From: an uncultured Lentisphaerota bacterium
GTDB lineage: Bacteria > Verrucomicrobiota > Kiritimatiellia > CAIQIC01
Length of the DNA: 64,000 bases
Assembly: GCA_903889245.1 (NCBI GenBank)
Contig: CAISWQ010000018.1
Location: forward strand, 62,001-126,000
Direction: 5' to 3'
The first letter of the stretch is position 1, and every line of letters starts with the position of its first letter. Both the position numbers and the translations under genes were made by a program. Shown here piece by piece: positions 13,676 through 58,730 of this stretch. Under the pieces are notes generated by a model. That model was not told the origin of the DNA. It did not search any database and saw nothing but the letters and a program-made list of their open reading frames with translations.

Positions 13676-14428
13676 CTACTTTCGCTCATCGGCGGGATTC
13701 CGCAACTGCCGCCACAGCGCGGTGCAGGAGAGCTGGCCGGGCGCGGCGGACTTGCCGAGGAAGCCATAGGCGAGACACGAGCCCGCGCGCGCCAGCGCCA
13801 GCCGCGCCTCCGGCGCACCCATGCCGATGAGGCACAGCGGCCGCCGCGCTGCGCCGCGCTTGAGCAACGCCAACAACAACCGCAAATCGGCCTCTGCGTT
13901 CAAACGCGTCGCCAACTTCACAAGGTCCACGCCGCTCTTCCAACCGCGCGCGATGGTGCTCGCCAGCGTCGCCCGCGGCGGCGTCGCGGAGAAATCGTGG
14001 AAGGAACCGATCACCGGCTTGCCGGCGGCATGCGCGGCGGCGATCACGCGCGGCAGCAGCCGGTCGCTGATTTCAATATCCACCATGCTGACGACGGCGA
14101 GCCCGCGCTGATACAACGCGAGGCGCTCCGCTGCGGCGCCACACCATTTCCCGCCTTCGTCCGCCGAGCGGATGGTCAGCAGTACGCGCACACCGGCCTG
14201 CTCCAACGCGCGACAGCGCTCCAACCAGCGGCCAGCGCCGAGTCCGGTCAGGTCGAGCCGCCACTCAACAAGATCGAACGGCCGCGTTCGCGCCTTGAGT
14301 ACGCTCGCCGCCCCGGCGAAGGTCGAGATGACGCCGATGACCAGCGGCCGTTTTCCAGGCATTGGAAAAGCAGTGAGGTGTTTTTTCCAAGCCTTGGAAA
14401 CGCCGGACGATGCTCGCTTGGGTTTCAT
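13676..14428 (-). CDS. aroD: Type I 3-dehydroquinate dehydratase with a repeat-encoded N-terminus
   Basis: Third step of the shikimate pathway. Type I enzymes form a Schiff base: the family's EWRLDL substrate motif, the catalytic His in IGSFHDF and the Lys in VDLVKLAT are all present. Two starts are possible. ATG 14428 has no Shine-Dalgarno but lies 10 bases from a good -10 box (see 14439-14466), fitting a leaderless mRNA. ATG 14362 (MPGKRPLVIG) would give the usual family N-terminus but also lacks a ribosome site. With the first start, residues 10-26 are encoded by two copies of the window-wide palindrome (VSKAWKK and FPMPGK). Even the second start codon lies inside a palindrome copy. Confidence 0.85.
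   Translation of the reverse strand: MKPKRASSGVSKAWKKHLTAFPMPGKRPLVIGVISTFAGAASVLKARTRPFDLVEWRLDLTGLGAGRWLERCRALEQAGVRVLLTIRSADEGGKWCGAAAERLALYQRGLAVVSMVDIEISDRLLPRVIAAAHAAGKPVIGSFHDFSATPPRATLASTIARGWKSGVDLVKLATRLNAEADLRLLLALLKRGAARRPLCLIGMGAPEARLALARAGSCLAYGFLGKSAAPGQLSCTALWRQLRNPADERK
14351..14400. repeat. Palindrome array, 2 copies, in the 5' part of aroD
   Basis: Copies at 14351-14369 (TTTTCCAGGCATTGGAAAA) and 14383-14400, centres about 31 bp apart. They lie in frame inside aroD if the first start is used. Confidence 0.9.
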
Positions 14429-27487: not shown

Positions 27488-27538
27488 TCTTCCAGGGATT
27501 GGAAAGGTCGGGGTCCGGTTTTTCCAAGGCTTGGAAAA
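27488..27538. repeat. Palindrome array, 2 copies, upstream of glpF
   Basis: Copies at 27488-27505 and 27519-27538 (TTTTCCAAGGCTTGGAAAA), centres about 32 bp apart. On the minus strand TTTCCA of the nearer copy lies 17 bases before TATTTT, a possible promoter for glpF. Confidence 0.9.
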
Positions 27539-27598
27539 GGGCGGGCGGGACCTGTTGCCGAAACGCGGCCGTTCTGCCAAGGATGCGCCGATACGGCG

Positions 27599-28897: not shown

Positions 28898-30112
28898 TCA
28901 GGCCGGGGCATCCTTGGGTGCGGTGGAGCGCGGCGCGTTCTTCGTCACATCCCAATAGGGCGAGATGCGCCGCAGCCGCGCGACCACATCGGGGAAGATC
29001 GCGATCAGGTTCTCGACCTCGGCGGCCGAGTTATAGCGGCTGAAGCTGAAGCGGACCGAGCCGTGAAGCGCCGTGAAGGGGATGTGCATCGCCTGGAGCA
29101 CGTGCGAGGGCTCCAGCGAACCGGAGGTACAGGCCGAGCCGCTGGAGGCGCAAACGCCCTGTGCGTTCAGCTCGTAGAGAATGCTCTCGCCCTCGATATA
29201 GTGGCAGGCGAGGTTCAGCGTGTTCGGCAACCGCGGCGCACCGCGTCCGTTGACTTCGAGGTAGGGAATCTTCTCGACCAACACCGTCTCCAGCTTGTCG
29301 CGCAACTGGCGGATGCGCTCCTCCTCGCCCATGCGTTCGATGGCGAGGCGGCAGGCGCGGCCGAAGCCGGCGATGTAGGGCACGTTCTCCGTGCCGGCGC
29401 GGCGGCCGTTTTCCTGGTGACCACCGATCAGCAGCGGGCGGATGGGCGTGCCGCGCTTGATATAGAGTGCGCCGACGCCCTTCGGTGCATGCAACTTGTG
29501 GCCGGAGCAGCTCAACAAGTCCACGTGCTGGAACCCGCCCTTGAGGTCCACCGGGATTTTGCCGAGGGACTGCGTTGCGTCGGTATGAAAAACAATCGCG
29601 GGGTTCGTCTCATGCGCGATGCGGGCCATTTCGGCGACGGGGAAGAGGACGCCGGTCTCGTTATTGGCATGCATGATGGTGACGAGCAGCGTGTCGGATC
29701 GCAACGCGCGAACGTAGGCGCCCAAGTCGAGTTGGCCGGCGCGATCCACCGGGAGAAAGGTGACGTCATAGCCCTGCCGCGCCATGTCTTTGCAAACTTC
29801 CAGCACGGCGGGGTGCTCGACGGCCGTGGTGATGATGTGTCGCCGTTGGGGGTTGGCACGCGCCACGCCGGTGATTGCCCAGTTGTTGCTCTCGGTGGCG
29901 CATGAGGTAAACGTGAGCTGCGTCGGCGCGATGCCGCCGAGCAGCGCAGCGACGTCTTTGCGCGCGTCCTTGACCGCCTCGGAAACCCGCCGGGCTTGGT
30001 CGTAGGCGGAACTGGGGTTGAAAAACTGGTCGGTCAGGAAGGGTTGAATCGCGGCGACGACTTCCGGGGCGACAGGCGTGGTGGCGTTGTTGTCCGCGTA
30101 AATGATGTTCAT
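28898..30112 (-). CDS. nifS: NifS-type cysteine desulfurase
   Basis: PLP enzyme that takes sulfur from cysteine and passes a persulfide to the scaffold protein. The PLP lysine is in SCSGHKLHAPKG (Lys206, preceded by His205), and the catalytic Cys328 is in the flexible loop SSGSACTSGSLEPSHV. The N-terminus YADNNATTPVAPEV is typical of the NifS/IscS group. It directly follows nifU (2-base gap), as in nif-type Fe-S systems. No nitrogenase gene is nearby, so it likely serves general Fe-S assembly. Confidence 0.93.
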   Translation of the reverse strand: MNIIYADNNATTPVAPEVVAAIQPFLTDQFFNPSSAYDQARRVSEAVKDARKDVAALLGGIAPTQLTFTSCATESNNWAITGVARANPQRRHIITTAVEHPAVLEVCKDMARQGYDVTFLPVDRAGQLDLGAYVRALRSDTLLVTIMHANNETGVLFPVAEMARIAHETNPAIVFHTDATQSLGKIPVDLKGGFQHVDLLSCSGHKLHAPKGVGALYIKRGTPIRPLLIGGHQENGRRAGTENVPYIAGFGRACRLAIERMGEEERIRQLRDKLETVLVEKIPYLEVNGRGAPRLPNTLNLACHYIEGESILYELNAQGVCASSGSACTSGSLEPSHVLQAMHIPFTALHGSVRFSFSRYNSAAEVENLIAIFPDVVARLRRISPYWDVTKNAPRSTAPKDAPA

Positions 30113-31942: not shown

Positions 31943-32474
31943 GGGCGCGTTTCAGCATTTCCATCTGAACGTCACGGGCAAGCTGTGCGTGGATATCGGC
32001 GCCTCGACCGGCGGCTTCACGGACTGCCTGCTGCAGCACGGCGCGGCACGTGTCTTCGCCGTGGACGTGGGGAAGGGGCAGCTCCACTGGAAGCTACGCA
32101 ACGATCCGCGCGTGGTGGTACTCGATGGCCTTAATGCGCGTTTTCTGCGGGCTGAACATCTGCCCGCGCTGCCGCAGATGGCCACGGTGGATGCGTCGTT
32201 CATCTCCTTGACCCTCGTGCTGCCCGCTGTTAAAGAATTGCTCGCGCCGGGTGGCGAAATCGTCACGCTCATCAAGCCGCAGTTTGAGGCCGGCCGCGCG
32301 GAGGTCGGCAAGGGCGGCGTGGTGCGCGATCCGCTCGTACGGCAGCGGGTGGTTGAGCGCGTGCGCGCGTTTGGCGAGGATCGGCTCGGCTTGCAGTGGG
32401 TGGGCGTCTGCGCGTCGCCGCTGCTCGGCCCGGCGGGCAATGTGGAATTTCTCGCGTACTGGAAGAAGCCATGA
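31743..32474 (+). CDS. tlyA: TlyA-family rRNA 2'-O-methyltransferase / hemolysin-like
   Basis: An N-terminal S4 RNA-binding domain (MKQRLDQLLVQREFAESREK to about residue 60) is joined to an FtsJ-type methyltransferase domain with motif I VDIGASTGGFTDCLL and the catalytic region KPQFEAGRAEVGKGGVVRD. TlyA proteins 2'-O-methylate rRNA cytidines; some are described as hemolysins. At 243 aa it has normal length. Its stop overlaps the nadK start (ATGA at 32471), a frequent tlyA-nadK arrangement. Confidence 0.92.
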   Translation: MKQRLDQLLVQREFAESREKAQRLILAGAVRVADQVATKPGHDYADDVMITVDQPERFVSRGGEKLEGAFQHFHLNVTGKLCVDIGASTGGFTDCLLQHGAARVFAVDVGKGQLHWKLRNDPRVVVLDGLNARFLRAEHLPALPQMATVDASFISLTLVLPAVKELLAPGGEIVTLIKPQFEAGRAEVGKGGVVRDPLVRQRVVERVRAFGEDRLGLQWVGVCASPLLGPAGNVEFLAYWKKP

Positions 32475-33331
32475 AAACCATCGGTGCGATCGTCAACGTG
32501 AAAAAGCCGGAAGCGGCCGACACCCTCAAGCGGCTGGTCGTCAAGGCCAAGGCGCTCGGCCAGAAGCTGCTCGTCACGGCCGACGCCGCGGCGCTGCTGC
32601 CCAACCTCAAGCCGGTGGGTGAGGCCGAACTGCTGGAGAAAGCGGAGGCGCTGATTGTGCTCGGCGGCGATGGCACCATGCTCGGCGCCGTGCGTCTGCT
32701 CGCTGGCCGCGCCACGCCGCTGCTCGGCGTCAATATCGGCAGCCTCGGCTTCATGACCAGCGTACCGGAAGAGGAGCTGGAGAACGCGCTCGCCGCGCTT
32801 GTCGCTGGCAAATGCGCGCTGGAGTCACGCAGCCTGATGGCCTGCCGCCACAAACCCGCGCATGGCGCGGCGCGCGAATTTCAGGCGCTCAACGAACTGG
32901 CGATCGGGTGGGGCGCCACCTCCAAGATGGTCACGCTGGAGGTCACGGTGGATGACGAACCGGTGACCGCTTACGCCTGTGACGGCATAATCATCGCCAC
33001 ACCGACCGGCAGCACCGGCCACTCGCTCTCCGCCGGCGGCCCGCTGCTGCATCCGCAAACGCCGGCCTTCATCGTCACCGTCGTCTGCCCGCATACCTTA
33101 AGCACGCGCCCGCTGGTCGTCGCCGATAGCAGCGTTATCGGCCTCCGCGTCTCCAACGCGCCCAAGCAACTGCTCTTCTCCAGCGACGGCCAGGAGCATC
33201 CGCTCGGCCAGGGTGACAGGCTCGAAATCCGCCGCAGCCCGGACCAGGTGCGCTTTGCGCATCTGCCCGGCTACAGCTACTTCGCCGTGCTCCGCCAGAA
33301 GCTGCACTGGCGCGGCTCCAGTCTCCTTTGA
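32471..33331 (+). CDS. nadK: NAD kinase
   Basis: ATP-dependent phosphorylation of NAD to NADP. The GGDGT motif is at residues 65-69, with NIGSLGFMTSVP after it, the conserved Asn-Glu in ALNELAIG, and the glycine-rich PTGSTGHSLSAGGPLLHP (the usual tyrosine-alanine is replaced by Gly-His). At 286 aa it has normal length. Coupled to tlyA by a 4-base overlap. The downstream U32 gene starts 19 bases later. Confidence 0.95.
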   Translation: MKTIGAIVNVKKPEAADTLKRLVVKAKALGQKLLVTADAAALLPNLKPVGEAELLEKAEALIVLGGDGTMLGAVRLLAGRATPLLGVNIGSLGFMTSVPEEELENALAALVAGKCALESRSLMACRHKPAHGAAREFQALNELAIGWGATSKMVTLEVTVDDEPVTAYACDGIIIATPTGSTGHSLSAGGPLLHPQTPAFIVTVVCPHTLSTRPLVVADSSVIGLRVSNAPKQLLFSSDGQEHPLGQGDRLEIRRSPDQVRFAHLPGYSYFAVLRQKLHWRGSSLL

Positions 33332-33350
33332 CCGCCTCGCCGGAGTACAA

Positions 33351-36092
33351 TTGAACCCGCACCAACACCAGCCGTCGTCGCCGTTTTCCAAACCCCTTGG
33401 AAAACAGAGGCCAGAGGTCAGAAGTCAGAGATCAGAGGGCAGCGGTCAGCCATTCGGGCGAACATCGAACACCGAACATCCAACATCGAACATCGAAGGC
33501 CGGCGAAACGAGACACGAGACCAGAGACGAGAGACCAGAGACCAGGGACACGAGACCCGCGACACGAGAAGCGAGACCTCTTCCGTCGAGCTGCTCGCGC
33601 CGGCGGGCGATCGCGATGCCGCCCTCGCGGCGCTGCACTACGGCGCCGACGCCCTCTACTGCGGGCTGGAGCGTTTCTCCGCGCGCGCCGAGGCGACGAA
33701 CTTCGCGCCAGAACAGCTCGGCGAACTGGTCGCCTACGCGCACTCGCTGACGCCACGCCGCCGCATCTTCGTCACGGTCAATACGGTGGTCCTCGAACGC
33801 GAACGCGACGCGTTGCTCGAGTCGCTCGACACGCTCGACCAGCTCGGTGTGGATGCGATCATCGTGCAGGACCTCGGCGTCCTGCGGTTCGCGCGGAAAT
33901 ATTTTCCTCGCCTCGCGCTGCATGCGAGTACGCAACTCGCGGTCCACAACCTCGCCGGCGCCGAGGCGCTGCGCGAGCTGGGCTTCCGGCGCGTTACGCT
34001 CGCGCGCGAGCTGACGCTCGACGAAGTCCGCGCGATCTCCGCCGCGTGTGGCATCGAGACCGAGGTCTTCATCCACGGCGCGCTCTGCTACTGCTACAGC
34101 GGACTTTGCCTCTACTCCAGCCAGTTGCGCGGCCGCAGCGGCAACCGCGGCCGCTGCGCCTATCCCTGCCGGGAGCTGTTTTCCACCAGCCATCAGCCAT
34201 CCGCCATCAACCATCCTCCCTCCGGCTTCGCCTTTTCCATGAAGGACCTCGCGTTGCCGGAGCGCGTCGCCGAACTGCGCGCGGCGGGCGTCGCGAGCAT
34301 GAAGATCGAGGGTCGCAAGAAGACCGCGCTCTATGTGGGCGCGACGGTGGACTATTACCGCCGCCAGCTCGATGGCCAGCTCGCGCCCGGCGAGGCGAGC
34401 GCCCGGCAGGAAGACCTGCGGACGATTTTCGCGCGGCCATGGACCAACCTCTATGTGGGCGGGCGCAGCCAGCGCGGCGCGGTGGATAGCGAGATCGTCG
34501 GCCATCGCGGCGCGGTGATCGGGCGTGTCGAGGCTGTGGTTGCGCATGGCGGCGGCAGCGCGCGGCTGCGCTTCAAGACCACCCGCGCCTTGGAGCGGCA
34601 CGATGGCCTGCAGGTGGATCTGCCCAACGGCGGCAAACCGTTCGGCTTCCCGATTGACGTACTGCGGCTCGGCGGCAAGAACGTGATCTCCGCGCCCGCC
34701 GGCGCGGTGGTCGAGGTCGAGCTGCCGCACGCGCATCCGCAACTGCCGATGGGCGCGGCGCTCTACTGCTCCTCGTCGCAGGCCGTGAAGCGCAGCTATC
34801 CTTTCTCGCGCCCCAAGCCCGGCGTGTTCAAGGCACGCCAGCCAGTGGCCATCACCTGCACGCTGACGCCGGATAAGATTTCCGCGCGTACGGATGCAGG
34901 TGCGAAGGCGGAGCTGGCGGGAAGTTTTCAGCCCGCCAAGGAAGCGGCGCGCATGGCCGCGGCGGCGCGTGGCGCGTTCGAGAAGCTGGGTGACACCCGC
35001 TTCGAGCTGGCTGCGTTCACACTGGAGAATCCGCACAGCTTGTTCGCGCCGGTCTCGCTGCTCAACGACCTGCGCCGCCAGTTGTGCGCCGCGCTCGATG
35101 GCAAGCTGGCCGGACAAACCACCGGGCGCCTCGCCCGCATCCGCAGCGCCGCCGAAACCGATCTGCCGCCGCCGGTTGCGACGGGCGACGAGCGCTGGCT
35201 GCTGAAGGTTGATAAGCCGGGCTGCCTCTATGCTTTCGCCGCCGAGGATTGGCGCGGCGTCGAGGAAGTCAGTGTCGCGGCCGAAGTCGAGCCGTTGCCC
35301 AAGCTGCTGGATGAACTAGAAAAGCTGGGCGGTGTGATCGGCCGCGAGAAAATCCGCCTCGCGCTGCCGGTGATCACGCGTCGTTGGGAAGAACAGGATT
35401 TGCTCGCGCGCGTCGCCGCGCTGCGTGCCGCCGGCTGGCAGAGGTGGGAGGCGGCGAATGTTTCGGCGTGGGCGTTCCTTGGATTGTCTTCCGCTTGTGG
35501 GCGGGACTTCCAAGTCCCGCGAACCCACGCTGCCCATGCGACAGACGCGGAAGCTTTAGCTCCCGCCTACCAAGCCGGCTTGGACTTGGTCGCCGACTGG
35601 CCGCTCTACACCCTGAACACCGCCGCCGCCGCGCAACTTCTCGCGCTGGGTGCAAGCCGCGTGACGCTCTCGCCGGAGGATGGGCTCGATAACATGCGCG
35701 AGCTGCTGAAGACGCTCGGCGAGCGTGCGGTGGTGATCGTGCATCAGGATACGCCGCTCTACATCGCCGAGACCTGCCCGGTCGCGAGCCTGACTGGCGA
35801 ATGCCCGGGGCCGGGCCGGTGTGAGTTCAAGGAACTGGAGATGGTGTCGGAGGCGGGCGAGCACGTCATGGCGATCAACCGCCGCTGCCGCACCTACACC
35901 ATCAACCGCCATCCGTTCTGTCTGGCGGGCCGGCTCGCCGCGTTGCGCGCGGCGGGCGCGCGGCGGCTGCGCGCGGATTTCATTCTGCGCCCCTATGCCG
36001 CGACCGACGTCGCGCGCATTTGGCGCGATCTGCGCGCCGGCCGTGCCGCGCCCGGCGCGCATCTGGGGAATTTCGACCGCGGGCTGCTGTGA
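33351..36092 (+). CDS. U32 peptidase / RlhA-like protein with repeat insertions
   Basis: The core (from about 33585, VELLAPAGDRDAALAALHYG) matches peptidase U32/RlhA, the 23S rRNA cytidine hydroxylation factor. Fe-S-type cysteines are seen in CYCYSGLCLYSS and RGRCAYPCRELF, with the DUF3656-type region and a second U32-like half (TCPVASLTGECPGPGRC). No ATG precedes the core. I propose TTG 33351, which has GGAG 5 bases upstream and lies just after nadK. The first 75 or so codons are then palindrome and short-repeat sequence (NETRDQRRETRDQ...). Two further repeat insertions lie inside: 34186-34215 (TSHQPSAINHPPS) and 35497-35560. The core appears intact, so it may still function. Confidence 0.8.
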   Translation: MNPHQHQPSSPFSKPLGKQRPEVRSQRSEGSGQPFGRTSNTEHPTSNIEGRRNETRDQRRETRDQGHETRDTRSETSSVELLAPAGDRDAALAALHYGADALYCGLERFSARAEATNFAPEQLGELVAYAHSLTPRRRIFVTVNTVVLERERDALLESLDTLDQLGVDAIIVQDLGVLRFARKYFPRLALHASTQLAVHNLAGAEALRELGFRRVTLARELTLDEVRAISAACGIETEVFIHGALCYCYSGLCLYSSQLRGRSGNRGRCAYPCRELFSTSHQPSAINHPPSGFAFSMKDLALPERVAELRAAGVASMKIEGRKKTALYVGATVDYYRRQLDGQLAPGEASARQEDLRTIFARPWTNLYVGGRSQRGAVDSEIVGHRGAVIGRVEAVVAHGGGSARLRFKTTRALERHDGLQVDLPNGGKPFGFPIDVLRLGGKNVISAPAGAVVEVELPHAHPQLPMGAALYCSSSQAVKRSYPFSRPKPGVFKARQPVAITCTLTPDKISARTDAGAKAELAGSFQPAKEAARMAAAARGAFEKLGDTRFELAAFTLENPHSLFAPVSLLNDLRRQLCAALDGKLAGQTTGRLARIRSAAETDLPPPVATGDERWLLKVDKPGCLYAFAAEDWRGVEEVSVAAEVEPLPKLLDELEKLGGVIGREKIRLALPVITRRWEEQDLLARVAALRAAGWQRWEAANVSAWAFLGLSSACGRDFQVPRTHAAHATDAEALAPAYQAGLDLVADWPLYTLNTAAAAQLLALGASRVTLSPEDGLDNMRELLKTLGERAVVIVHQDTPLYIAETCPVASLTGECPGPGRCEFKELEMVSEAGEHVMAINRRCRTYTINRHPFCLAGRLAALRAAGARRLRADFILRPYAATDVARIWRDLRAGRAAPGAHLGNFDRGLL
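33384..33404. repeat. Single palindrome copy in the U32 5' region
   Basis: TTTTCC-AAACCCCTT-GGAAAA, 21 bases with a slightly longer centre. It is one of only two single copies in the window. Confidence 0.85.
33408..33578. repeat. Three blocks of short degenerate tandem repeats
   Basis: Block 1 (33408-33450) has AGAGGTCAGA-like units; block 2 (33460-33498) GAACATCGAACACC-like units; block 3 (33507-33578) GAGACCAGAGAC-like units. All lie in the 5' part of the U32 frame without a stop codon. Confidence 0.85.
34186..34215. repeat. CAGCCAT-type tandem repeat inside the U32 gene
   Basis: CAGCCATCAGCCATCCGCCA continues to 34215 and encodes a Ser/His/Pro insert between a conserved Cys motif and the FSMKDLAL segment. 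Confidence 0.8.
35497..35560. repeat. Two adjacent hairpin repeats inside the U32 gene
   Basis: GCGGGACTT/AAGTCCCGC (35501-35509 and 35512-35520) and a GCGGAAGCTTTAGCTCCCGC unit just downstream. Both look like dispersed intergenic repeats that have become coding. Confidence 0.7.
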
Positions 36093-37172: not shown

Positions 37173-37317
37173 TTTTTCCAGGGATGGGAAAGGGCGCACT
37201 GCGTTTTTTCCGGGGCTTGGAAAAAGTCTGCGGGAAAATTTCCGAGGCTTGGGAAAAGCGGCGTGATTTTTTCCACGCCTTGGAAAAAGCGGCGCCGGAT
37301 GTTCCAAGCCTTGGAAA
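37173..37317. repeat. Palindrome array, 5 copies, between methyltransferase and ilvD
   Basis: Copies at 37173-37191, 37206-37224 (TTTTCCGGGGCTTGGAAAA), 37237-37257, 37267-37288 and 37302-37317. Centres are 33, 32, 30.5 and 32 bp apart. This is the longest array in the window. The right arm of the last copy runs into the ilvD ribosome-binding site. Confidence 0.95.
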
Positions 37318-48970: not shown

Positions 48971-51900
48971 TCATTCCGCTTCGCCCTCCTCCGCCTCCAG
49001 CGCGGGCGCGGTGTAGCGGCAGCAGCCGCGGAAGTCGCAGTGCCCGCAATCCTGCGGCTGCGCGACGAACGCGCCGCTCTCCAGGATTTCCAGGCATTGG
49101 AAAATCCGGCGCGTGAAGGCGACAAACAACGGGGTCTTGGGGTCGCCGATCAACTCCGCGAGCGTCGCGGGATCAACCGGCGCGCCGTCCAGTGTGATCC
49201 AATTTTTTGCAACGGCCTTGACGATGGTGGAGAGATCGCCGCGATATGGCTGGTATTGCAGCATCATCGGCAACGCGTCGCCGAAGACCGTTTGCGCCAC
49301 GAGCCCGTAAACCGGAAGCTGGCAGTTACGCGCGGCGACGATCTCGGCGGCGAGAGCCTCCGGCTTCTGCCCGCTCTTGGTTGTACCCTTGTAGTCCACC
49401 ACCGTCATGGCCTGCACAACGCCGTCGTCATCGGCCAGCAAATCCACGCGGTCGAGCTTGCCGTGGACGTAGAGCCGGTTGACCGGGTCATCGGGATGGA
49501 CAAACGTCACGGCCGATTTCTCGCAGCCCTCCTTGCTGCCGAAGGCGAACTCCAGCAACGCGGGGAAACGGCGCAATGGCGGCAGGGTGGCGGGCTCGAA
49601 GACGGCCGGCTCCAAACTCAAACGCAGCAGATTGCGGCAGCCGGCGATCAGGTTGGTGCGCACCACGCCGCGCTGCTCCACCGCGCCGAGCATCATGCTC
49701 TCCAGCGCGTGCTCCTCGGCTTCGAGCTCGGCGTCGGCGACCGCGGCGATCAGGTCGAGGTAGGGCTCGATTTTTTCGGGTTGCAGGTTCACCACCGGCC
49801 GGCCGCGGCCGTCCACGGCGATCCGCCACGCGCCATCCCTGGCTTGCACCGCGAACGCCGGGCGGCAGAGATCGGCAAACCGCCGGCGGATGTCAGCAAG
49901 GGTGGGGGGCGCCTCGGCGGGCGGCGGATCGCCGCGCAGCAGCAGGAACGCGTGGTGCATCACACGATGGACCAGGCTGCCGAGCGCCAGGGGCGTCGCC
50001 TCGCTCTCGTTCGTCCGCAGCGGCTCCAGGCGCAGGACGCGCTGGAGAAAAAATTTATAGGGGCAGGTCGCCAGGGTCTCCAGTTCCGTCGCGCTGAAGT
50101 CGGGCACGGTGCGCGGAGTCCGGCGGATTTGCTGCCACATCGCCGGCGCGATGGCGCCGATGAACTTCGCGCCGCCCTTGGTGATCGTCCCGCCCCCCTG
50201 CAACGCGGTCTGCGTGAACAACCGCGTGCGCTCCGCCTCCATCAGCAGGCTGCGCGCGACCAGTTCGCTGACGCCGTCGGCGGCGCGTGTCGCCGGCGTG
50301 TGCTCCCGGTGACCGGCCGTCAATTTGCGCGCGGCCTGTTGGCGCGCCTCGTCGCTGGCGCGGCAGAGTGCGAGCGACAGCGTGGCGAGGAACGACTCGC
50401 CGTGGAAGGGTTTGAGCTGCCACGTGGGGATGGCTTTTCCCCTGCGCAGGCTGCGCCAGGCGTCACCGAAGATGTCCGGCGCGACCTCACAGCGCCAGCG
50501 ATCATACGCGTCGGGCGGACGGGCCGGCAGCGTGTCCCAACTCGGCCAGCCGGCGAGCCGCCAGGCCGAGGCGAAACAGATCGAAGGCTCCAACTCCTCG
50601 CCCTCCTCGTCGCGGCTCTGGTAGGAAAACACCAGCCGTTCGGCCGCCGCCGCCAGCGTGGTCAGGAAAAGCAGATGGTCCTGGCTGCGCCGCGCGAGCG
50701 AGGGCGCGAGCGCGGTCTGCGGCAGGCCGGTCAGCTTCGCGCGTAACTGCTGCAACTCGGCGTCGGAGAAGACCGGGCTCGGCGCAGGCAGGCCCGGGAA
50801 GACGCCGGCGTTCAAGCCGGCGACCATGACGACGCGGAACTTCAGGCCCGCCGCGTCATGCGGATTCAGAATCCAGACGCCGGCCTCGTCGGTCGTGCCG
50901 GCGGCGACCGTCACGTTGCGCAGTACGCGGCGCAGCAGCGCCAGCAGCTCGCCCCACGTCAGCGTCTCCTGGCCCGCGCGCTCGCGCAACAATTCAAGCT
51001 GGTCGAGTAACGCGGTGAAGGCGCGGCTGTTGAACAGCGCCGCCGGGCGCGTCAGTCCGTCAGCACTGGCTTGCAGATATTCGCGGACCTTGTGCTCGAC
51101 ACCCAGCGTGCCGCGCAGTTCGGCCAGCAGTTGCGCGCAGAGTTGCTCGGCCTTGCCGGAAGCGCCCGGTCCGGCGATGAGCCGCAGCGCCTGCGCCGCG
51201 AATGCGCCGGCGGCCTCCGCCTGTTCCGCCGGCGCGCGCTTGCCGAGCAGGTAATTGCGGACGCGTGCGCCGAGCAGCTTGGCGTCCGGCAGTTCGGGCT
51301 CGATACCCGCGCGGCGGATGGCGTCGGCGATGGATGAGGGAGATTTATGATGTATGATTTCCGATTTATGATTTCCGGAAAGATTCGTCCCGCTGGTTGC
51401 AACTGACAACTGACCACTGACAACTGACGCCACGCTCGCGTTTTCAGAAGCCTGGATTTTCTCCCAAGCAATCCACGGACTTTCCAGCAGTGCGCAGAGC
51501 GCATCGCGGTTGCGGCTGGCGCGGACTTCGAGCACGCGCAGGACCGCCTGCACGACCGGCGCGGCGGGCGCGGCGCGGCCGCGGCGAAAATGGTAGGGCA
51601 GTTGGAAGCGGCGGAAGACGTCCTCGATGGCGTCGGAGTAGCGGCCGACATTGGGCACGACGAGCGCGATATCCTCCGGCCGCAACCGGGCGCGCGGCTG
51701 CTCCAGTTCCCAGACGATGCGGCGCGCGAGATCCTCGACCTCGCCATAGAGCCCGGCGGAGCAGGAGAAGCCGAGATGTTCGCGCGCCTCGGCGGCGAGG
51801 CCGGGGTCACGCATCGCGTAGGCCTCGCGCAGGCTGGTGACGATGCCCCATGTCTGCGGCGCATGGCAGGCGGCGTCCTCGGCGGCGCTCTCCGCGCCGA

Positions 51901-55072: not shown

Positions 55073-55184
55073 TTTTCCAACCCTTGGAACTTTTCTGCCG
55101 ATTTTTTCCAAGGCTTGGAAAACTTCCGCCGTATTTTTCCAAGGCTCGGAAAAACTGCGGTGTTCCTTTTCCAATCCTTGGAAA
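55073..55184. repeat. Palindrome array, 4 copies, downstream of tRNA-Gln
   Basis: Copies at 55073-55090, 55102-55122, 55134-55154 and 55167-55184; centres about 30.5, 32 and 31.5 bp apart. The first begins 6 bases after the CCA end. The array lies between the tRNA gene and a convergent gene, so it is not upstream of any start codon. Confidence 0.95.
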
Positions 55185-57849: not shown

Positions 57850-58683
57850 ATGCTGATCGCCCACGCAGAGAGTCTGGATGTCCATCGTAATCTGGCGGTG
57901 GAGGAGTGTCTGCTGGAGCAGGTGGAGCGGCGCGGGCCGATCCTGTTCCTGTGGCGCAGCGCGGGCGCGGTGGTGCTCGGCAAAAATCAGAATCCGTGGC
58001 GCGAGGTGAATCTCCCGGTGCTGCGGGCGGAAGGGCTGTCGCTCGCGCGGCGCTGCTCCGGCGGCGGCACGGTCTTCCACGACGCAGGTAATCTCAATTA
58101 CGCGTTGGCGCTGCCGCGCGATGCCTATGATCAGGACGCGGTCTTCGAGCAGCTCATCCGTGCTTTTCATCGCGTCGGGCTTTCGGCGGCGCGCGGGCCG
58201 CATCACAGCCTGATGGTACACGGCCGGAAATTTTCCGGCAGCGCGTTCTGCTACCGGAGACGTGTCGCGCTGCATCACGGCACGCTGCTGGTCAACGCCG
58301 ACCTTGCGCGGCTGACGCGCGTGCTCACCGGCGGTTTGCAGCTCGCCACGCGCGCCATCGCCTCGCACCCGATGCCGGTCGTCAATCTGTCGGAAATCAA
58401 ACAGGGCTTCGACCTTGCAGCCGCGGCGCGGGTGGTCAGCTCGGCCTTTGCCGCCAAGGCGCAACCGCTCGCCGTGGACGAACTTGATATCACGGAGAAA
58501 CTGGAACAACAGCGCTCGTGGGCCTGGCAGTTCGGCCAGACGCCGCCGTTCGAGTTCGATCTGGACAGTGCGATCATCCGCGTGGAGCAGGGCCGCGTCG
58601 TCGCGCCGCCATCCATCGCGCTGACTGCGACGCAGCACGCGCGCCTTGCGGCGCTTTTCCAAGGCTTGGAAAAGCCAGGCTGA
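57850..58683 (+). CDS. Lipoate-protein ligase A-like protein
   Basis: Attaches lipoate (or octanoate) to carrier domains of oxoacid dehydrogenases or GcvH. Family motifs are LARRCSGGGTVFHDAGNLNYAL and the lysine loop HGRKFSGSAFCY. At 277 aa it is slightly short of LplA and may lack the small accessory domain, as in LipM/LipL-type transferases; the exact reaction is therefore open. The last residues (LFQGLEKPG) come from a palindrome copy. ATG 57850 has no Shine-Dalgarno; a TAAGCT box lies 6 bases upstream. Confidence 0.82.
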   Translation: MLIAHAESLDVHRNLAVEECLLEQVERRGPILFLWRSAGAVVLGKNQNPWREVNLPVLRAEGLSLARRCSGGGTVFHDAGNLNYALALPRDAYDQDAVFEQLIRAFHRVGLSAARGPHHSLMVHGRKFSGSAFCYRRRVALHHGTLLVNADLARLTRVLTGGLQLATRAIASHPMPVVNLSEIKQGFDLAAAARVVSSAFAAKAQPLAVDELDITEKLEQQRSWAWQFGQTPPFEFDLDSAIIRVEQGRVVAPPSIALTATQHARLAALFQGLEKPG

Positions 58684-58704
58684 ATTTTTCCAAGGTCTGG
58701 AAAA
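58655..58704. repeat. Palindrome array, 2 copies, at the 3' end of the lipoate ligase gene
   Basis: Copies at 58655-58673 (TTTTCCAAGGCTTGGAAAA) and 58685-58704, centres 30 bp apart. The first encodes the protein C-terminus; the second follows the stop codon. Confidence 0.93.
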
Positions 58705-58730
58705 CGATGCGAATTTTCCTGCCAGATCAT

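Follow-up and report, generated by a model that had tools for sequence, protein, structure and literature searches.

Dispersed repeats as the probable source of an N-terminal coding leader in a U32/DUF3656 gene

A repeat-filled leader between nadK and the U32 core

We analysed a 64,000-nt stretch of DNA (the window; all coordinates are positions in it unless a contig is named) from a Verrucomicrobia bacterium whose genome is designated G000. The TGA stop codon of nadK occupies 33329-33331, and 19 nt downstream lies a TTG from which a single open frame of 913 aa runs to a stop at 36092 (Table 1). The core of this frame matches PF01136 (E 2.4e-72) and PF12392 (E 2.9e-12), both in excess of the gathering scores; its matches to the NCBIfam equivalogs TrhP and UbiU stayed under their cut-offs, and a sequence search yielded no solved relative. 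Judged by its domains, the gene product is a Peptidase_U32/DUF3656 protein of RlhA-type architecture, RlhA activity being the hydroxylation of C2501 in 23S rRNA.

Table 1. Features of the nadK-U32 locus in the window.
Feature	Position	Strand	Remarks
nadK (NAD kinase), upstream gene	32471..33331	+	same neighbour in G002, G003, G004 and G005
Ribosome-binding site GGAG, 5-nt spacer to TTG	33342..33345	+	identical and at equal distance in G004 and G005
TTG, putative U32 start codon	33351..33353	+	kept in G004 and G005
Palindrome GTTTTCCAAACCCCTTGGAAAAC, member of the TTTTCCAAGSCTTGGAAAA family	33383..33405	.	G003, G004 and G005 leaders also have palindromes
Heptamer array 1, unit CAGAGGT	33405..33450	+	homologous and in the same frame in G004 and G005
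Heptamer array 2 (block 2), unit CGAACAT; the 39-nt dispersed element CGAACATCGAACACCGAACATCCAACATCGAACATCGAA	33459..33497	+	
Heptamer array 3, unit ACGAGAC	33508..33578	+	homologous and in frame in G004; degenerate in G005
Conserved core, Peptidase_U32 + DUF3656 (RlhA-type architecture)	33585..36092	+	dN/dS ~0.2
Heptamer array 4, unit CCATCAG, in frame within the core gene, ~residues 278-289	34183..34215	+	
REPIN-like inverted-repeat insertion GTGGGCGGGACTTCCAAGTCCCGC...GCTCCCGCCTAC, in frame, ~residues 716-741	35497..35573	+	

The original prediction held that the 5' end of this gene had apparently been rebuilt from repeats, with a GGAG-preceded TTG, one palindrome and three blocks of different short tandem repeats joined in one open frame, and we confirmed each of these elements at 33342-33578, the three blocks being different heptamer arrays. 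No in-frame ATG is available from 33354 to the core, as had been claimed, and no GTG or TTG either; from the nadK stop to the core, the G000 frame holds just one codon of these three kinds, TTG 33351. Counting the TTG, 79 codons precede the motif ELLAPAGD and would add about 77 amino acids, in keeping with the predicted extension of about 75 residues. From this arrangement we infer that TTG 33351 is the translation start. The heptamer units are degenerate (76-87% matches), and RNA folding at the start of the leader revealed nothing striking apart from the palindrome hairpin (z -1.38).

Two further insertions, a fourth heptamer array and a REPIN-like repeat, lie within the same gene and had gone unnoticed. 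The inverted repeat, of the form GGGCGGGA...TCCCGC, has 19 similar sites in 1.24 Mb; the insertion is also present in the G003 ortholog and is missing from G004 and G005. An AlphaFold model based on an alignment of 21 orthologs had a mean pLDDT of 79.7, and values fell below 50 only at residues 1-76, 282-285 and 714-741, which correspond to the leader and to the CCATCAG and inverted-repeat insertions, respectively. The model thus predicts that the leader and both internal insertions are disordered, and the confinement of the low values to repeat-derived segments implies that the repeats sit where added residues should harm little.

The junction in related genomes and the selection acting on it

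We compared the junction, as the original prediction had proposed, in three further members of the genus of G000: G003, whose locus sequence is that of the public contig SCQF01000009 (Verrucomicrobia bacterium isolate DP16D_bin.41), G004 and G005. In both G004 and G005, the nadK TGA is followed after 19 nt by a GGAG-preceded TTG, an N-terminus of the LKPV.HQPS.SFSKPWKK type, palindromes and then three heptamer blocks that succeed one another as in G000. Leader length varies (79 codons in G000, 106 in G004 and 89 in G005), and all three leaders are open in frame 0, including that of G005 with its decayed heptamers. The G003 leader consists of an ATG and two palindromes only, spanning about 21 codons. 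Genes of the sister genus and of the order's other families start, as a rule, 0-18 codons ahead of the core, and no repeats were found in the frame between start and core in these outgroups, which agrees with a 5' end rebuilt from repeats. The simplest order of events is a short leader that acquired palindromes and subsequently heptamer elements.

The original prediction left two possibilities, namely that repeats are tolerated at N-termini or that the gene is silent. Core dN/dS among G000, G004 and G005 was 0.20-0.23 and no internal stop occurred; this strong purifying selection rules out a silent gene, while the Shine-Dalgarno sequence, TTG and open frame shared by three species favour N-terminal tolerance. 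The most likely reading is a living gene that simply took up repeat DNA. A pseudogene or an assembly artefact, as the repeats at the 5' end and the lack of an ATG might suggest, is barely credible in view of the core dN/dS, the absence of internal stops and the recurrence of the structure in three independent genomes.

The leader itself evolves fast. Its pN/pS in the gene's own frame was 0.61, 0.83 and 0.66 in the three comparisons, relative to 0.68-1.07 in the other frames, and the own frame gave the lowest value in 3/3 comparisons, with a bootstrap interval that reaches 1. This pattern lends modest support to translation. A different reading takes the leader for an untranslated 5' region, with translation of the enzyme beginning at a non-standard codon close to the core and the open frame being a by-product of the stop-free heptamers. 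Such heptamers hold frames open without selection: stops are absent from every sense frame of the leader arrays, G000 and G005 are open in frame 2 as well, and selection on the leader is weak. Two length differences in the same phase, taken alone, have a chance probability of 1/9. Near the core, G004 and G005 carry an in-frame GTG 7-8 codons upstream that could serve as a start, but G000 has no ATG, GTG or TTG there, and the codon preceding ELLAP is GTC in G000 and ATC in G004 and G005 and hence no conserved start. Together with the Shine-Dalgarno sequence and TTG common to three species and a frame preserved through several length changes, this makes an untranslated leader unlikely; in all probability the N-terminus encoded by the repeats is translated and lacks ordered structure.

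Dispersed families behind the repeats

The arrays described originally as short tandem repeats are present, but the local picture was incomplete, as their units belong to genome-wide dispersed families. The palindrome family accounts for 43 strand-matches within the window, where 0.02 were expected, and exact copies of TTTTCCAAGSCTTGGAAAA number 418 in G000, 230 in G003 and 27 in G004; two genomes from a different family have 51 and 66. Runs of TTTTCCAAGSCTTGGAAAA occur in the window at 14350-14401, 27519-27539, 37205-37288, 55073-55153 and 58654-58705 as well as genome-wide. Their pitch is 31-32 nt (108 neighbouring pairs in 1.24 Mb), or about three helical turns, and variable spacers of about 12 nt separate the copies. 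A literature search for this palindrome returned no match.

For block 2, we found 4 exact copies of the 39-mer in G000 and 16 with three mismatches or fewer; the corresponding counts within three mismatches were 45 in G004 and 17 in G005, and no copies were detected in G003, G001 or G002. Permuting the order of the heptamers reduced the matches to 2, 3 and 1 in G000, G004 and G005, which rules out pure local slippage as the origin of block 2. The copies have sharp ends and mostly unrelated flanks. Block 2 is an exact copy of a genome-wide dispersed element made of variant heptamers in fixed order. A second housekeeping gene, that of lipoamide dehydrogenase, contains the same element in frame in G000, G004 and G005, and a loop of 7 codons takes its place in G003, G001 and G002. 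In a third gene (L122, L136, L152), all three species carry the 39-mer with matching sequence on either side. Beyond the genus, G232, from another family of the class, has two exact matches of 38 nt; collections of plasmid, phage and viral contigs contained no copies of the 39-mer. A Y1 (RAYT) transposase domain (PF01797), considered as a candidate mobiliser, is encoded in all seven genomes, G000 having only 2 weak matches, and the presence of the transposase does not clearly track the element: G003, G001 and G002 carry PF01797 without the 39-mer. None of the papers searched contained these sequences, and a paper on deep-subsurface Verrucomicrobia mentions neither repeats nor the bin of the closest relative that has a name. 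We tentatively propose that the heptad-ordered 39-nt sequence could represent a hitherto undescribed class of dispersed elements, which would be very short, sharply bounded and devoid of palindromic structure, would be copied across Verrucomicrobia genomes and would supply conserved enzymes with protein sequence at N-termini and in loops.

Blocks 1 and 3 and array 4 showed no conservation of unit order in a looser local test, which has little power because block 2 also shows none at that loose mismatch limit. For blocks 1 and 3, no fixed unit order was seen elsewhere, and they may have arisen by local slippage.

A period of 7 is prominent in G000 and is not a product of chance. We counted 21 strong period-7 arrays in 860 kb of G000 (26 at a looser threshold) and 0 after Markov shuffling; period 14 gave 12 arrays, period 21 gave 13, and all other periods from 4 to 24 gave at most 5 each. 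At the looser threshold, 1.24 Mb held 49 arrays (the shuffled control of 0 refers to the 860-kb subset), with the same few units recurring at unlinked sites. Although genes make up 87% of the DNA, 26 arrays were intergenic, 19 were within genes and 4 were at gene 3' ends, and such a deficit in genes (23/49) relative to spacers is expected if most coding insertions are removed. Eight of the 10 informative in-gene arrays were stop-free in the sense direction; gene calling biases this test, and we did not use it as proof. Across the phylum, a plain heptamer array was patchily distributed over 21 of 289 genomes, with almost none for the reversed control.

Several individual sites were also recorded in G000. 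Two CGAACAT arrays face each other in an intergenic region (G000:C56:212653-212744, L134), where a long hairpin is possible. A gene resembling squalene/hopene cyclases, named by eye, has two in-frame heptamer insertions (L004/L005, G000:C13 ~29135-29951), one of them a composite of several heptamer families. At G000:C56:187659, C54:25460, C33:22795 and C13 19159 (numbered within the analysed stretch; L108), arrays overlap the 3' ends of genes and supply the stop codon. Within the window, CAACTGA heptamers lie in frame inside a minus-strand gene (51400-51428).

Three heptamer arrays between start and core could also act as a phase-variation switch: 7 is not a multiple of 3, so the gain or loss of one unit would turn the gene off. 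Phase variation of HMW1A in Haemophilus influenzae is described as linked to 7-bp tandem repeats (PMC8262952). We regard a switch at this locus as very improbable, since the degenerate units should suppress slippage, 3/3 species are in frame, block 2 is a copied fixed-order element and the gene is of housekeeping type.

Proposed in-frame accretion and comparison with known systems

We favour, at roughly three chances in four, a functioning housekeeping-type U32/DUF3656 gene that is read from TTG 33351 and has had its N-terminal coding leader lengthened, in frame, by successive short dispersed elements. According to this model, a start adjoining nadK was already in use in the genus, and elements landed between this start and the core, where they would have been retained because they were stop-free and frame-preserving. 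Probably, the start codon did not arise within the repeats, and instead the stretch from start to core was filled by them. Palindromes would have entered first, being present in all four genus members, followed by three heptamer-structured elements, which either arrived after G003 split off or were lost in G003. Translation from TTG 33351 would run through the repeats and place about 77 disordered, charged residues ahead of the enzyme fold. Insertions would survive only if stop-free, frame-preserving and located in a flexible part (the N-terminus, one loop, one inter-domain linker), and selection would purge those elsewhere. The leader would thus be made as protein, presumably a neutral one without function.

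The locus is a concrete example of dispersed repeats writing the N-terminus of a conserved enzyme, with relatives that show intermediate stages. Such frames should not be dismissed as dead genes or annotation errors, and the copying route of the heptad-ordered dispersed element could be studied through the comparison of close strains.

Rickettsia palindromic elements (RPE) are palindromic sequences of ~100-150 bp that are dispersed and lie in frame in protein-coding genes. The elements described here resemble them as short dispersed sequences in frame in housekeeping proteins that code for flexible segments and are inherited across species; as for RPE, some of the dispersed copies lie in frame inside conserved genes whose outgroup orthologs do without them. 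In contrast, block 2 measures 39 bp, is non-palindromic and consists of heptads, and several families are stacked in one leader. Lacking a palindrome, block 2 is not an RPE and only works like one.

The short tandemly repeated repetitive (STRR) sequences of cyanobacteria are heptanucleotide repeats. In most bacterial genomes examined, heptanucleotide repeats are reported to be the most abundant class of 5-11-nt repeats, and in Beggiatoaceae, TAACTGA heptamers lie upstream of start codons (PMC4679880). The CAACTGA unit noted above differs from the latter by one base. The arrays of G000 are of the STRR type in that a degenerate 7-nt tandem unit occupies many loci (49 arrays in 1.24 Mb), and they share with STRR and TAACTGA repeats a taxonomically patchy distribution of degenerate 7-nt direct repeats that are mostly intergenic and sometimes in ORFs. 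The units here appear to be others (CAGAGGT, CGAACAT, ACGAGAC, CCATCAG), and likeness to STRR was judged on period, degeneracy and number of loci; moreover, one family here forms a sharply bounded, fixed-order copy inside the coding sequence of conserved enzymes. With the miniature mobile DNA of the REP/REPIN kind (PMC3116915) the elements have in common that they are small, dispersed and non-autonomous. Both the palindrome and the GGGCGGGA...TCCCGC repeat resemble such sequences, whereas the heptad element is set apart by its lack of inverted symmetry.
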